Shown here one piece after another: positions 3,892 to 11,787 of a stretch of DNA of 22,351 nucleotides. Positions within the stretch are counted from its first letter, which is position 1; the number at the start of each line of letters is the position of its first letter. The translations under genes and the position numbers were made by a program. The stretch spans positions 1 through 22,351 of the IMG/VR virus record IMGVR_UViG_3300008267_000434; one strand, written 5' to 3'. This DNA is from a virus. The notes below the pieces were generated by a model. The model saw nothing but the letters and a program-made list of their open reading frames with translations. It ran no database searches and was not told the origin of the DNA.

Positions 3892-4722
3892 TTAGTTGAA
3901 TAAGTCGTCAAATTTACTTACTGTGTCTTTTTTCCCAGCAGCTGCAGTCTCTAAAGTAAAGTCTGTTTTTTGACTTCCTAAAGCTTTATCTAGATCAGTT
4001 TCTTCAGCAACTGGTGGAGCTACTGGTTCGATTGCTTCTGTAGGTTCAGCCGGTGTTGCTTCTGCTTCTCCTGGATTCAAATATCCTTGTAATTGTTTTT
4101 TGATATACTCGTAATCAAATTGTGTGAATGTATCAACTGGGTTTGGTTGTTCTTTTAACCAAAGATCTACTTTTGCATTATCTGCTGATAGGGGAGAGGT
4201 TTTAGGTTTAATACGAACAGTTGTTGTTGGATAAGGATTTCCTGGTGTTTGTTCAACTACCATATCATATCCATTCATTACGTCTGTGTAATCTCCAATA
4301 TCCTCATCTTCTGCTAAAGCAAGTAATGCTTTATAGATGTTAGTACCGAATGACCAAAGACGAACTCCTTTATCTTCTTCTCCTCTTACAATAACAGGAG
4401 CAAAGATTCTAGTTTTAGGAGATAGTTTTCCTGATAGTGACCAGTTTTCTTTGTCAGATGTTTTTCTTAATTCTTTTACAAATTCTTCGATTGGATCTTG
4501 CTTACCGAAATTCGATAAAGCGATCATTGGAAATTTACCAATGTTGTAGTGGAATTTTAATTCCTTAAAAGGAAAGGATGGATCGTAAACGGAAGGTACA
4601 ATTCTTACGATATGTTTTCCATTTGTTGGTCTCCAGAAGATTTTCTCATAATCTACTTTCTCTCTTTCTTGACCGTTGTTGTTCAGTCCTGCCAATTTGG
4701 CTTTGATTGCTTCTAAATTCAT
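3892..4722 (-). CDS. gp32-like single-stranded DNA-binding protein
   Basis: Coats single-stranded DNA at forks and during recombination. The 276 residues have the T4 gp32 layout. A basic N-terminal stretch (KAKLAGLNNNGQEREKV) is followed by an OB-fold core of about 25-205 that begins with KIFWRPTNGKHIVRIVPS. A Pro/Glu/Ala-rich linker comes next, and an acidic tail ends in SKFDDLFN, the kind of tip that recruits partner proteins. It contains no cysteines, so the zinc site of T4 gp32 is absent. Its leader is unusual (see the repeat entry) and may allow autoregulation. It heads the gp32-uvsX-nuclease-helicase unit. The start ATG at 4722 follows an A-rich stretch without Shine-Dalgarno. The identification rests on the protein layout and gene context. 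Confidence 0.85.
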   Translation of the reverse strand: MNLEAIKAKLAGLNNNGQEREKVDYEKIFWRPTNGKHIVRIVPSVYDPSFPFKELKFHYNIGKFPMIALSNFGKQDPIEEFVKELRKTSDKENWSLSGKLSPKTRIFAPVIVRGEEDKGVRLWSFGTNIYKALLALAEDEDIGDYTDVMNGYDMVVEQTPGNPYPTTTVRIKPKTSPLSADNAKVDLWLKEQPNPVDTFTQFDYEYIKKQLQGYLNPGEAEATPAEPTEAIEPVAPPVAEETDLDKALGSQKTDFTLETAAAGKKDTVSKFDDLFN

Positions 4723-4953: not shown

Positions 4954-5463
4954 TTAAGGAATAGATACTATTTCAAAGTATCCTCTATGGTCTATTGCAC
5001 CTGGAGTTATACCTTCTTCAAATTTACAATACCAGTTATGAGTTATATTTTTTAAAGAATTAAAGTAATTTGATATATTGACACCTTGGTCTGAATGTTC
5101 TGTAGATTGCATTATATTGATTTCATCATCACTATATACAATATAGTACCAGATAGAGTTTTTAGTATTTTCTTTATCAAATACTTTAAATAGTGGATAA
5201 TAATAACCTTTTCTCATTCTAAGCCCACCATTTCCATAATTAGGATGACCTTGTCCTTCAAGATTTCGTAAGTTGGAAGCGAATCCATGTGCTTGATAAA
5301 CTTTATCACCTTGAGTTCCCCTCCAATATTGGTTCTTAAAACCATCACCATTAAATTTAACAGTAATTACATTTGGTGATTGTTCATCATTTTCTCTTAG
5401 TATTCTTGAATTAGTAGTTAATTTATTTTCTACTAAGAATTTTTTTAAATTAAAGTTTTCCAT
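4954..5463 (-). CDS. Tagged paralogue 1: unknown protein with conserved N-terminal tag and C-terminal DHRGxFEIV motif
   Basis: Not recognised as a known family. The 169 residues start with MENFNLKKFLVENKLT, continuing to ILRE at 21-24. This tag is shared almost unchanged with the next two genes upstream. The remainder is a beta-rich, aromatic domain ending in YCKFEEG and DHRGYFEIV, which is also the ending of the neighbouring 169-residue protein. The tag contains two L-x-E sites (LVE at 10-12, LRE at 22-24), the cleavage signature of T4-type prohead proteases. Its FLVE at 9-12 parallels FIAE in the T4 internal-protein leader MKTYQEFIAE. I infer a packaged or matured virion protein, unproven. 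It has no transmembrane segment or secretion signal. The A/T-rich leader is duplicated from the gene upstream. Confidence 0.75.
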   Translation of the reverse strand: MENFNLKKFLVENKLTTNSRILRENDEQSPNVITVKFNGDGFKNQYWRGTQGDKVYQAHGFASNLRNLEGQGHPNYGNGGLRMRKGYYYPLFKVFDKENTKNSIWYYIVYSDDEINIMQSTEHSDQGVNISNYFNSLKNITHNWYCKFEEGITPGAIDHRGYFEIVSIP

Positions 5464-5467
5464 TTTG
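5406..5467 (-). repeat. Direct repeat copy 1, encoding the shared N-terminal tag
   Basis: These 62 nt, covering the start codon and the first ~20 codons of paralogue 1, match the corresponding stretches at 5948-6009 and 6316-6377 almost base for base, including synonymous positions. Similarity to copy 2 continues upstream of the start codon through the TGTGTTTT and TATACAGTAAATTA segments to about 5498. The intergenic leader was therefore duplicated together with the tag. Confidence 0.9.
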
Positions 5468-5495
5468 TTTTTTTGTGTTTTTTATATACAGTAAA

Positions 5496-6005
5496 TTAAT
5501 TAACCGCTACTATTTCAAAGAATCCTCTGTGGTCCACTTCCCCAACTTTAAATCCATTTTCAAACTTACAATAGTAACCTGGTTCTAGTTCTGAAGCTAC
5601 AAGGGAGGTACTTGGTATACTATCATCTTTTAACATAGAGTTTTGAAGCTCTTTAGCTGTAGAGTTAGATACAGAAACATATATCTCACTAGCTTTTGGG
5701 TTATAAGATGCCCAAAAGTCAAATTGTAAATCTCTTTTAATATCATATGGTATTGTACCAACTTTAACTAAGTTATATCTATTACCATTATTCCACAATT
5801 CAGGTAGTGTAAATCTGTTAGCATATCCCCTATTTCCGCTAGTAGTTTCACTAGATTCCTTCATGTGCTCTCTGAACTTATCAGTCAGTTTTATCGTAAT
5901 TGACATTGGTAATTGTTCGTCACCTTCCATTGATTCATTCAACATTTTTGAATTAGTAGTTAATTTATTTTCTACTAAGAATTTTTTTAAATTAAAGTTT
6001 TCCAT
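5496..6005 (-). CDS. Tagged paralogue 2: unknown protein with the same tag and C-terminal DHRGxFEIV motif
   Basis: Not recognised. The 169 residues begin with the same MENFNLKKFLVENKLT tag, continuing to MLNE at 21-24, and end with YCKFENG and DHRGFFEIV as in paralogue 1. The middle (about 30-140) differs strongly from that neighbour, so ends are conserved and the centre has diverged. Both L-x-E sites of the tag are present. It sits between the other two paralogues with 32-nt gaps on each side, clearly one tandem series. A shared role such as targeting to the prohead with a variable payload would explain this pattern. That remains inference. Confidence 0.75.
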   Translation of the reverse strand: MENFNLKKFLVENKLTTNSKMLNESMEGDEQLPMSITIKLTDKFREHMKESSETTSGNRGYANRFTLPELWNNGNRYNLVKVGTIPYDIKRDLQFDFWASYNPKASEIYVSVSNSTAKELQNSMLKDDSIPSTSLVASELEPGYYCKFENGFKVGEVDHRGFFEIVAVN

Positions 6006-6009
6006 TTTG
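5948..6009 (-). repeat. Direct repeat copy 2, encoding the shared N-terminal tag
   Basis: This is the middle copy of the near-identical 62-nt tag-coding repeat. Identity with copy 3 reaches further into the gene (plus-strand ttcattcaacat from 5934) and 8 nt into the leader (ggctttat). Identity with copy 1 runs further into the upstream leader. Such mosaic similarity is what stepwise tandem duplication or gene conversion would leave. Confidence 0.9.
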
Positions 6010-6037
6010 GCTTTATGTGTTTTCTGTATACAGTAAA

Positions 6038-6373
6038 TTATAGTTTGAATCCTTTAGGTAGTATACCTCCATATTCCCCGCTTAAGAAATTTAATCTACT
6101 CTCAATTTCTTGTATTTCTTTAATAAATTCTTCTTTAGTTCTTTGAACTTCAATTCCTTTTTTTGGATCATGAATCCCGGGAGTGAACTCTTTGTTTTCT
6201 AAAGAAGATTTTAGTTTTTTGATAGCTTGTGAAGCGTTTTCAAAATCCTCCATTACTTCCTTAGTGATTGGATTTACTGGGGGAGTAAGTGGAGCTTTAT
6301 CTTCATTCAACATTTTTGAATTAGTAGTTAATTTATTTACTACTAAGAATTTTTTTAAATTAAAGTTTTCCAT
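6038..6373 (-). CDS. Tagged paralogue 3: short helical protein with the shared N-terminal tag
   Basis: Not recognised. The 111 residues begin with the same tag but have V at position 12 (FLVV instead of FLVE), so the first L-x-E site is lost. The second site, MLNE at 21-24, is kept. The rest is unlike the other two: a proline-rich joint (APLTPPVNP) and then charged helical, coiled-coil-like segments (about 40-60 and 80-100). It lacks the DHRGxFEIV ending. It is the first gene of the series, and a good copy of the promoter-like motif CTATTTATAATAAA lies 23 nt upstream of its start. The tag joined to a different body argues that the tag is a separable targeting or processing signal. Confidence 0.75.
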   Translation of the reverse strand: MENFNLKKFLVVNKLTTNSKMLNEDKAPLTPPVNPITKEVMEDFENASQAIKKLKSSLENKEFTPGIHDPKKGIEVQRTKEEFIKEIQEIESRLNFLSGEYGGILPKGFKL

Positions 6374-6428: not shown

Positions 6429-6884
6429 TTACAAATCTACTATTTTATATAGTTTTGTATTTACTCTTTTTAGTTCTGGACCTTTTGTTAATAGTATGCA
6501 GTTTGCATAATCAGGCCAGTTGATTTTAAAATTCTTATCTAATATTCCTCCATTAAGTGATTCAATTAATCTATTTAATGAATTAATTGTATAAAGAGTA
6601 TTTGACTCTTTCTTTCTATGAACTAATACTGTATTTGGAATAAAATTAGATACATTATCTAAATCAACATTATATGTAATTACAAATTCCTCTTGGCTTT
6701 TAGCATATAATATAAATATCTTGTTATATATAATTTTATATCTATCTTGAATTGTACTTAGAGTTCCTTCCAAGGTATCTTCGGTAGAAAAAGTACAAAC
6801 TAGTTTATTTGACATGTCTAGGTAGTTGCTTAGTTGTTCGATATCATAATCGAAACTATTGGGGCTTATAGTGCTTGTTATCAT
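6429..6884 (-). CDS. Hypothetical 151-residue protein downstream of the polymerase
   Basis: I do not recognise the family. The protein is soluble-looking, with alternating strands and helices, no membrane segment and no signal peptide. The conserved-looking C-terminal half has the stretch NTLYTINSLNRLIES, then GGILDKNF and INWPDYANCILL, and ends in LYKIVDL. It starts 19 nt after the polymerase stop codon, so it is probably co-transcribed with it and may serve replication or its control. A TATTTATA sequence lies directly against the start codon, too close to act as a usual promoter. It could be a translational regulator or a polymerase accessory protein, but nothing in the sequence decides this. 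Confidence 0.6.
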   Translation of the reverse strand: MITSTISPNSFDYDIEQLSNYLDMSNKLVCTFSTEDTLEGTLSTIQDRYKIIYNKIFILYAKSQEEFVITYNVDLDNVSNFIPNTVLVHRKKESNTLYTINSLNRLIESLNGGILDKNFKINWPDYANCILLTKGPELKRVNTKLYKIVDL

Positions 6885-8285: not shown

Positions 8286-8963
8286 TTATTTTCTTAAATC
8301 GAAATTTGCTTTTCTAGAATTCTCTAAATCTACAAGTGGATCTTTTTCTACTTCTGTAGTAGATGATAATACCGGTTGCTGATTTGTAACTGGCTCTTCT
8401 ACAAGGAATGAATAATCTGTTACAAAAGCTGATATTCCTGGCATCTGAGGTTCTAAAGCATTAATTGCTTTTTTATTCTTTGATGCTGCTCCTTCGAAAG
8501 GATATCCATTGAAGTTTTTATCTTCGGCTGGTCCTTTTATAATCCAGTCTGTTTGTGTTAAATTATATCCAGGGAGTGCTTTTACTCTTATGTAGGTATC
8601 TTTATCTACCTCTGTTATTTTTTGTGAGGTTTTTAGTTGAATAAAGTACCTTTTTGTCTTACCTTTTTCTTTATCTCCTTTTTTTAATTTTAATTTGAAA
8701 AATCCTTTTAAAAGTCCTAGTATATTTGGTACCAGTGGCATTAGATCTTCTAAATAATTTGGTGTAATTTTCTCTAACTCTAGTCCATTATCTTCTGGTT
8801 TAGCTCCTGAATAATATTTTTTTTCGGCAGTTTCTATATACTGCCCTTTATATTCATCTCCTGTTTTCTTAATAACAAATTCACCTCCTGATGTTGATTT
8901 AGGTTTTTTGTAATTAAACTCAGGCATGTACCTAGGTTGTTTTAATTTTGGATCTTTTGCCAT
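8286..8963 (-). CDS. Putative baseplate-associated protein of unknown function
   Basis: Not assigned to a named family. I choose the ATG at 8963 (225 residues, start MAKDPKLKQPRY) over the upstream ATG at 9005. It lies one base after the hub gene's stop codon and gives the MA- start seen in the neighbouring structural genes; the longer form would overlap the hub gene by 41 nt. The protein has a Gly/Tyr-rich N-terminal part (YKGQYIETAEKKYYSG), a lysine-rich middle (about 90-110), and a compact beta-rich domain with YFIQLKTS and TYIRVKALPGY. It ends in a Pro/Thr-rich tail. It is the last gene of the tail unit, so a structural or assembly role at the baseplate is likely. The identity of its partner is unknown. 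Confidence 0.7.
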   Translation of the reverse strand: MAKDPKLKQPRYMPEFNYKKPKSTSGGEFVIKKTGDEYKGQYIETAEKKYYSGAKPEDNGLELEKITPNYLEDLMPLVPNILGLLKGFFKLKLKKGDKEKGKTKRYFIQLKTSQKITEVDKDTYIRVKALPGYNLTQTDWIIKGPAEDKNFNGYPFEGAASKNKKAINALEPQMPGISAFVTDYSFLVEEPVTNQQPVLSSTTEVEKDPLVDLENSRKANFDLRK

Positions 8964-8964
8964 A

Positions 8965-11787
8965 TTACGAATTTTGATATTCCCAATGCCATGCTTCACT
9001 TGCAATTCTCCTAAAACCGTATTTCTCTCCGTTAGCAGCTAACCACTTATATTCAGGGAAACTTTCTTTCATTTTTTGCGATGATTTATTTGCAAAATCG
9101 ACTGCTATTCCAAATCCGTGATTAGACCTACCTGGAGTGGCTGTTGGTGGCTTACAAACCCCACTAGAACAGTTCTCATTATATACTCTTTGCTGATCTT
9201 GTAACGTCCTGTAGGCGGAGTTTATTTTAAATACTATACCGGCTGCTGTAGCAGCTGCTAACAGTCTATCTAAATCTTTTGAAGCTGTTATATATAAACG
9301 TATTCTACCTCCATCACTAGCAACAGCTCCTTTATAAGATTTCCAATTATTTATGTACCTTAATTTACTATCAGGTACTTCTCCATTTTTATAAGTTGTT
9401 CCTTCAATTGTTCTAAAAGCTCCTCCTACTTTCTTAGCTATTGCAGGTTTATTTGCATTTGGAACATTTATACTAGGTGTATTTGCTGGTGCGGTTCTTC
9501 CTCCTTGTGCTTGGGTTTTTTCTAAAACATAAAATAATGCTTTAACTGATGTTACCCATCTGTTATTACCTTCTATTGAATGTTCAATTCCTGTAATAGT
9601 AAACCCGAACTTACCTTCGTAATGAGCAGGGAGTATTCCTGGTGCTATTTTAAATGTTTGTCCTATTATAAATCCTCCTATTCCATCTAAGGATATTGAT
9701 AATTCTACAGGGATTAGGCCTGGTATTGGTTCTCCTTTAGTTGCTTTGTTTTTTTCTACGACATTTTCAACAGTCCATTCTGCATGCATTGTTTTTGCTG
9801 CTTCTAAATCTTCCTGATCATACCCATCTATACTTCCATTAAAATCATCAAAGAATGTTTCTACATCATCAAACCAATCCTCTACTCTATCTCGCTTTTC
9901 TTGCTGTTGTGTTATATCTTCTGGGCTTTTTGCAGGTTGTTTAGTTGAAGTATCTTTTGTGACTCTAATCCTGTCTATAATACTTGGATTCCATTTTATT
10001 AAATTTCCAACATTATCTGTATAGTTATATGTAGATCCTTGTGCAGCAATACTAATTTGTGATCCCATTTCATTGGAGATCTTACTACTGATGCTTACAT
10101 CTGTAAATATACTATCTAATCCTGTTAGAGTTAGTGTTGGATGATTATCTGCGTTTGTTGGTGTGGCACTTCTATCTACTAAGTAGTAAGTACTGTTATT
10201 ATCATCATATACAAAATCAAAGTCATTTATACCTCCTAAGGCAGTTTGCATTCCTTCCAATATTGATTGAAAAATATCATGCACACTTTTAGTTCTTTTA
10301 CCATCCTCGTCAAGTGATTCATCAATCTTACCAATTACGTATGGTACTGATACCATAATATTCAATATATCTTCTTTATCAAAATTTTCCGATGGAATAT
10401 TATCATGTATAGCATCAACCCTAATTGTGTATTCTTCTGTATCTTCAGGTTGATTATAGTTGTACAGGTAGTAACTAATAGCAGGACTAATTAAGGCTGG
10501 GGCTAGTGTTTTAAACCAGTCTATACTTGGTATTTGTACTTTCGCTTCCCAAGGAAGCACACATACAGTTGGATCTATTGAAAAATGCTCATCACTTGTT
10601 AAGTACTTTGAAGACTGGCTGTAATCTGTATTAAATTTTAAATACACATAATCTTCACTACCAAGAGACTTACTTACATCTATCCATGAAACATGTTTGT
10701 TAAATATGTCAAAAATTACTCTAATAGGTACCCAATGTGTTGGTGTATCTTCGTCTAATATACCTGTATCATCATGCTGAACTTTGTGATAGTATCCTCT
10801 GAAATCTTCCAAAGCTTTACTGAAGGTAGGCATACCTTCTTCTAGATCAACTCTATCAAAGTAATCATCTGTAACATCTTGTAGCTTTTGATGAAAATAG
10901 TGATACATACTTTTTTTCTGTATCTTTCCTGTTGTAGAATTTCCATTATCTATTTCATCTTGAGGTAGTCTCTGCCCTGGGTGAAATCGTAATGCTAATG
11001 ATTCTAGTATTTCTCCTGTCGATATAATTGAAACACTACATTCGTATCCTCCGCTTTTTGTATAACTCCAGTTAAAGTTCTTAACATAGCCAATCATCCC
11101 TTCATAGTTGTAACTATTTTTTTCTCTCAACGACTTTATCTCATTAAGAATTTCCTGCATTGTTATACCGCTACGGAAAAAATCCTGTGATACTGGTTCT
11201 ACTAAAGTTTGTACCTCTCCTGAGTTATCTAAAAAAATACTGTGGCCCCATTCTAGTAATACTGTGAATCCTGGTCTTAGGTATAGTTTTTCCATGAATT
11301 CAAAATCTTCTAGAGTCCAGCATGAAAATTTTACTTCTGCCTCTCTTAAGGTTCCGTAAGTATTCTTAGATTGAACAGTCATTCCTGTTATACCTGGCAT
11401 TGGTCTGATACCGGCTGTTTTTTGTCTATTACTGTATGCATTGTATAATGATCCTACATCCTGATCTGCAATAGAAAATCCCTCTCCGAACCCTATTCCT
11501 TCTCTCAAAGATCCATTCGGATCTAATAAACCTCCTGCAAGTACATTAGTTGCTGCTAAAGTAGAATCTCCTTTTATGTCTCCTCTACCTGCTTTATTTA
11601 GTAACAGTCTATTTTCTTCATCTGTTAATGTATTTACAGCAGAAGACATTTTTATCCAGCCTGTTTTAGATGTTAAGAACATTAACTCATTATTTGTTCT
11701 TTGAGTAGTTTTTCCGTGTAAGGCTTGTCTTCTACTTATCTGTTCTGCAACACCTTCTGTAAGTGGACTATATATACCTCCTGCCAT
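8965..11787 (-). CDS. Baseplate hub protein fused to a C-terminal M15/VanY-type peptidase (tail lysin)
   Basis: A large hub component that also carries a peptidoglycan-cutting enzyme, for local wall digestion when the tail contracts. Residues 1-756 form the structural part. The segment FTITGIEHSIEGNNRWVT (about 729-746) is typical of gp27/VgrG/gpD-like hub proteins. After a Pro/Asn-rich linker the last ~140 residues form a D-Ala-D-Ala carboxypeptidase/endopeptidase domain. Its signatures are SAYRT (857-861), NHGFGIAVD with zinc ligands H890 and D897, and EAWHWEY with E931 and ligand H934. C873 and C878 could form a disulfide. T4 achieves the same with a lysozyme domain in gp5. Its start overlaps the LysM gene stop by one base (TAATG). 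The exact bond cleaved cannot be read from sequence. Confidence 0.88.
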   Translation of the reverse strand: MAGGIYSPLTEGVAEQISRRQALHGKTTQRTNNELMFLTSKTGWIKMSSAVNTLTDEENRLLLNKAGRGDIKGDSTLAATNVLAGGLLDPNGSLREGIGFGEGFSIADQDVGSLYNAYSNRQKTAGIRPMPGITGMTVQSKNTYGTLREAEVKFSCWTLEDFEFMEKLYLRPGFTVLLEWGHSIFLDNSGEVQTLVEPVSQDFFRSGITMQEILNEIKSLREKNSYNYEGMIGYVKNFNWSYTKSGGYECSVSIISTGEILESLALRFHPGQRLPQDEIDNGNSTTGKIQKKSMYHYFHQKLQDVTDDYFDRVDLEEGMPTFSKALEDFRGYYHKVQHDDTGILDEDTPTHWVPIRVIFDIFNKHVSWIDVSKSLGSEDYVYLKFNTDYSQSSKYLTSDEHFSIDPTVCVLPWEAKVQIPSIDWFKTLAPALISPAISYYLYNYNQPEDTEEYTIRVDAIHDNIPSENFDKEDILNIMVSVPYVIGKIDESLDEDGKRTKSVHDIFQSILEGMQTALGGINDFDFVYDDNNSTYYLVDRSATPTNADNHPTLTLTGLDSIFTDVSISSKISNEMGSQISIAAQGSTYNYTDNVGNLIKWNPSIIDRIRVTKDTSTKQPAKSPEDITQQQEKRDRVEDWFDDVETFFDDFNGSIDGYDQEDLEAAKTMHAEWTVENVVEKNKATKGEPIPGLIPVELSISLDGIGGFIIGQTFKIAPGILPAHYEGKFGFTITGIEHSIEGNNRWVTSVKALFYVLEKTQAQGGRTAPANTPSINVPNANKPAIAKKVGGAFRTIEGTTYKNGEVPDSKLRYINNWKSYKGAVASDGGRIRLYITASKDLDRLLAAATAAGIVFKINSAYRTLQDQQRVYNENCSSGVCKPPTATPGRSNHGFGIAVDFANKSSQKMKESFPEYKWLAANGEKYGFRRIASEAWHWEYQNS

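Follow-up and report, generated by a model that had tools for sequence, protein, structure and literature searches.

Three consecutive genes in a viral DNA fragment of 22,351 nucleotides (the window) begin with a common 24-residue peptide. We consider this peptide very probably to be a lineage-specific capsid-targeting propeptide that works like the capsid targeting sequence (CTS) of phage T4, so that the payloads behind it would be packed into the head, cut free and ejected. Such a role had been proposed in an earlier note on this DNA, and it gains support from four observations: the payloads are exchangeable (54 clusters), the peptide ends at an [LIVM]-x-E boundary, relatives encode an S77 protease, and tagged genes occupy slots beside protease, scaffold and terminase genes. 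Capsid-targeting propeptides are already known. The assignment made here is by function and not by proven homology to the T4 peptide.

The tagged genes and their relatives

The three ORFs, termed A, B and C, all lie on the minus strand. Gene A (6038–6373) encodes a protein of 111 residues with payload family 1; gene B (5496–6005) and gene C (4954–5463) encode 169 residues each. The N-termini are MENFNLKKFLVVNKLTTNSKMLNE in A (6302–6373), MENFNLKKFLVENKLTTNSKMLNE in B (5934–6005) and MENFNLKKFLVENKLTTNSRILRE in C (5392–5463), with the consensus MENFNLKKFLV[EV]NKLTTNS[KR][MI]L[NR]E, and these are the only three copies of the tag in the record. The [LIVM]-x-E motif is encoded at 6302–6310 in A, 5934–5942 in B and 5392–5400 in C (ILRE), and FLVE at 5970–5981 in B. 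Residues 1–24 of A and B are identical at 23 of 24 positions, and the alignment ends there; with E=3e-12, this match is not due to chance. The nearly identical 24-residue start reported by the earlier note is therefore confirmed, and FLVE at residues 9–12, the change E12V in A and L-x-E at residues 22–24 in all three proteins are as it stated. Its further claim that the bodies differ is correct for A and B, but not for B and C. The latter two align over their whole length at 31% identity, have the C-terminal motif YCKFE..DHRG[FY]FEIV in common and, judged by this alignment, are diverged paralogues; two payload families thus stand behind the three tags, with B representing family 2. A near-identical copy of A is present in another contig (L008).

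The paralogy of B and C and the near identity of the three tags in DNA could suggest that the three genes arose by recent tandem duplication and are still alike at their N-termini for that reason. As a full explanation this was rejected and is extremely improbable: A has no likeness to B past residue 24, and the tag is found on 54 unrelated bodies. Tandem duplication holds for B and C only.

A search of IMG/VR with a profile of the tag gave 415 candidate stretches, of which 317 were confirmed. In prokaryote genomes the same profile hit no more than two loci, both of them in metagenome-assembled genomes. Among annotated phage records the tag was seen only in Flavobacterium phage immuto, a cultured relative with four tagged proteins (gp003, gp076, gp077 and gp092), whose predicted boundaries are, in this order, INE-24, LKE-24, LKE-25 and LLE-24. 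The 116 tagged proteins from the loci that were read form 54 clusters, between which no similarity is detectable past the tag. These clusters, like A and B, display the same N-terminal peptide on unrelated mature bodies, which is the pattern of a T4-type capsid-targeting propeptide.

A sister tag, ME[NS]..FD[IM]..W[KRQ]..FL[KT]E, occurs on small proteins. It starts like the main tag, also ends in L-x-E, and shares slots with it (protease–scaffold and gp002–SSB). Its loci are L004:40242-40469 (immuto gp069) and, in contig G006, L127:6217-6501 and L128:15301-15588.

The boundary at residue 24 and known targeting peptides

Conservation and motif counts were made on one representative per cluster (n=54). 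Positions 4, 6, 10, 13 and 16 of the tag are invariant, and conservation is high up to residue 19 except at position 17. It collapses past E24, with an entropy of more than 3 bits from residue 25. An [LIVM]-x-E motif ends at residue 24 in 46 of the 54 representatives; in the remaining eight it is displaced by one to four residues and ends at 23, 27 or 28. All eight keep the shifted motif, compared to a chance expectation of 1.4, and this count was not attained in any of 5000 simulations. Every representative therefore carries a gp21-type cut motif (L/I-x-E, in the slightly wider class [LIVM]) at the end of the peptide. The constraint tracks the tripeptide and not the position, which matches what a protease site predicts, and the pattern of conservation makes this boundary a probable cut site. 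The earlier note had pointed to two L-x-E sites; the boundary at E24 behaves like a cut site and E12 does not. Cleavage at FLVE-12 alone as the main site was rejected, since A has V12 and every representative keeps a motif near 24. [LIVM]-x-E is a common tripeptide of which core proteins show a modest excess only, and genome-wide enrichment of L-x-E in core proteins was dropped as evidence for being too weak.

The tag could also be mainly a recombination handle, that is, conserved 5′ DNA that aids the swapping or duplication of payloads and has no role as a protein signal. The tag DNA is indeed related by descent: F9 is encoded by TTC in 88% of cases, compared to 32% in genome use, the same-codon rate is 0.72 against 0.48 expected, and the tags of A, B and C are about 98–100% identical in DNA. 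This common descent makes it likely that the tag has spread by recombination. However, selection on the peptide itself is visible, because several codons (GAA/GAG at E12, L15 and S19) vary only synonymously and so encode an invariant residue. Moreover, the [LIVM]-x-E motif is retained through shifts in register, and the tag also occurs inside gp077 fusions. A handle without a signal is thus quite improbable.

If the tag is a targeting propeptide, the following steps can be proposed. By analogy to T4, the tag, probably a short helix, would dock the payload onto the internal core of the phage during prohead assembly. A gp21-type protease would then cut after [LIVM]-x-E at residues 22–24, a site derived from conservation, and the freed payload would stay in the head beside the DNA and be ejected at the next infection. 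Exchange of payload genes would take place at a small number of slots in the genome, and also between groups of phages with different tags. An AlphaFold model of B fits the idea of a separable label: the block-mean pLDDT of the payload is 71–96 and that of the tag about 40–46, with a helix predicted at residues 6–23. The literature searches made returned no virion proteomics, and no paper dealing with the virions of immuto or with the tag.

In T4, the capsid targeting sequence is present on the internal proteins IPI–IPIII and on Alt and is cut by gp21 (PMC9026906, PMC5694885). Ten N-terminal residues of IPIII are enough for packaging, and the site at which gp21 cleaves follows L/I-x-E (PMC9026906). 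Comparison of the sequences showed that IPII and IPIII have MKTYQEFIAEA in common and differ in their bodies. The start of IPI is altered and I-T-E is found at residue 19, a parallel to E12V in A. As in T4, the lineage described here combines a short N-terminal peptide on differing bodies, ending in hydrophobic-x-E, with a gp21-type protease and gp23. FLVE resembles the FIAE of MKTYQEFIAE, ten residues being too few to show homology. Unlike the T4 peptide of 10 residues, the tag has 24 residues and two L-x-E motifs; 54 payload clusters stand behind it, and it is also used inside the modular core-like protein gp077.

The head propeptides of the giant phages SPN3US and phiKZ offer a second comparison. 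The SPN3US paralogues gp53 and gp54 have identical N-terminal 15 residues with a protease-motif site and are processed and packaged, which is similar to the arrangement proposed here (PMC5694885). The giant-phage propeptides differ in that they are mostly longer than 100 residues, have another cleavage motif and depend on a protease only distantly related to gp21 (PMC5694885). In phage P1, an N-terminal segment of DarB, of which 30 residues are sufficient, directs this antirestriction cargo into the head, from where it is delivered to the host (PMC9024508, in the parts on DarB). The likeness is in the N-terminal head-targeting segment, which has been shown for P1 and is predicted from sequence for the tag. 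The head proteins and protease of P1 are of another kind, and the same parts of that source describe no tag common to dozens of payloads (PMC9024508).

Head genes, gp077 and genomic slots

In immuto, gp070 is a prohead protease of the T4 gp21 type (Peptidase_S77, 8.9e-35), and the capsid protein matches Gp23 (6.3e-84). Peptidase_S77 is encoded in 10 of the 12 tagged records examined; the other two are fragments, one with gp23 pieces only and the other without gp23. The window contains no head module. Its gene order is that of immuto (DnaB, 5′-3′ exonuclease, RecA, SSB, the tagged genes, gp002 and polA), and this synteny suggests that the phage encodes an S77 protease outside the 22,351-base fragment. 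The earlier note had held that the absence of a gp21-type protease from the genome, along with the tag on clearly cytoplasmic enzymes, would refute targeting. Ten tagged relatives do encode this protease; in the present phage the gene would lie beyond the window. The note had also proposed looking for the tag on capsid, scaffold and core proteins: the capsid protein, protease and scaffold do not carry it, and the core-like gp077 of immuto does.

Gene 077 of immuto (L004:32632-33633) lies upstream of the terminase gene. Its product is annotated as a cob(I)alamin adenosyltransferase, has no Pfam match, and is probably annotated wrongly. It carries a variant of the tag, MADNFNLR.FL[TS]EN.LTKN..L[LV].E, followed by variable modules and a common charged C-terminal region. 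Within the gp077 family, the same module directly follows the tag in one phage and lies deeper in the protein in another, and the modules are joined each time soon after hydrophobic-x-E or TNE. Several members have a second tag inside the protein, mostly after L-[QAK]-E, and in some of these another payload follows. From this arrangement we infer that gp077 may be a cleavable string of cargo.

Two further proteins were observed in this context. The product of the gene at 8286–9005 (minus strand) of the window has the C-terminus ...SRKANFDLRK, similar to the truncated second tag (EGFDLRKFLAENRK) that ends some gp077 proteins; relatives carry tagged genes inserted right after this gene. The scaffold-like protein immuto gp067 (L004:40627-41868) and its counterpart in contig G006 (L127:6684-8156), encoded between the protease and capsid genes and annotated as DNA polymerase phi-like, contain near-identical repeats in tandem, two or three in number, with LEEG or VNE at the joints; these may be repeated cleavable peptides.

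A census of 87 distinct tagged payload genes showed that they are concentrated at few positions. Twenty-two follow gp093 (before primase, where the contig reaches primase) and 17 lie in the gp002–SSB interval, the same slot as in the window. The interval from gp077 to terminase holds 12, and 7 others are close to it. Protease or scaffold is adjoined by 15, and 5 lie between gp032 and polA; the remainder are scattered. In each slot the flanking genes are constant and the payload varies from phage to phage. The slot in the window is bounded upstream by a conserved homologue of immuto gp002 (6429–6884, minus strand), a synteny seen in about 17 tagged genes, and downstream by a conserved, syntenic gp32-like ssDNA-binding protein (3892–4722, minus strand; PF08804, 2.2e-11). 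The sequences upstream of the tagged genes, read by eye for a common late promoter, contain no clear shared motif.

Many tagged genes are thus found in replication-gene slots, near SSB, primase and polymerase genes, and not in the head module. Three adjoin the tail tube gene, and 4 of 53 payloads are TM-like. These features would fit a docking or localisation signal for some other structure or process (membrane, replication complex or tail), on proteins that are not virion cargo. On the other hand, further tagged genes adjoin terminase or are inserted between protease and scaffold, the conserved stretch ends at a gp21-type site, and the payload of B is also found behind a T4-CTS-like start. 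In T4, too, the ipI, ipII and ipIII genes are located away from the head gene cluster and have non-head genes as neighbours. We therefore regard a signal of this other kind as unlikely.

Payloads and their labels

Searches of Pfam and PHROG with A, B and C gave no convincing match. The 53 payload representatives gave scattered hits only against families, and their PADLOC hits were weak and scattered. The clearest payload family is an HD-domain phosphohydrolase in a relative (L092:4803-5393, plus strand; PF01966, 2.1e-6); no other payload has a clear assignment to an enzyme family. Despite the good model, searches with the fold of B gave no PDB or viral hit at E<=0.001. Most of the payloads are acidic (median net charge −9), unlike the basic internal proteins of T4. 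Basic charge in the mature protein is a trait of those proteins and not of the targeting peptide, and we did not take the mismatch as disqualifying. A role of the payloads in host takeover or counter-defence is a guess.

The payload of B is also found behind other labels: behind MTKETLRMQMLAGIITEGQYKVKLNE in L009, where a nearby gene has the same start, behind MKHIKLFEGYEFGEE in L010 (record G002) and behind MKYVIESFEAFTNE in L011–L013. The records of L009, L010 and L013 contain no copy of the tag of the window. No homologues of this payload were found beyond those in L009–L013 and the tagged set. Another payload, L113, has a homologue (1e-70) in immuto gp095, whose N-terminus is MKKSELVKLIKEELN. 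The occurrence of the same payload behind different N-termini indicates that the payload is the unit that changes labels.

Nineteen proteins of G002 begin with a T4-CTS-like peptide, compared to 4.1 expected and a maximum of 10 in 500 draws. No S77 protease or gp23 was found within its 100 kb, so that a targeting role for these starts is itself something we infer. Runs of such starts, for example MKNNVKNFSQFVNES or MIKSFDQFLTEA, were observed in G002 at about 0.7–11.4 kb and 46–60 kb (L117, L119 and L120).

A broader picture, which we hold to be evenly balanced between right and wrong, is that aquatic T4-like phages of Flavobacterium and relatives use cleavable labels specific to each lineage for a large and rapidly changing set of ejected proteins, that payloads are relabelled when they move, and that gp077 is a cleavable payload string. 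In a limited literature search, neither the tag and its lineage nor the extent of the payload set, the occurrence of the tag inside gp077 or the relabelling was found described. The targeting claim is directly testable in the cultured phage immuto. Provided that the tag is a capsid-targeting propeptide, sequence would be enough to list the packaged and injected proteins of a whole group of uncultured aquatic phages, and this list would be a source of candidates for host takeover or counter-defence, among them one HD-domain phosphohydrolase. Finding one payload behind several labels would then mean that cargo genes move between phage lineages and take on the address in use there.
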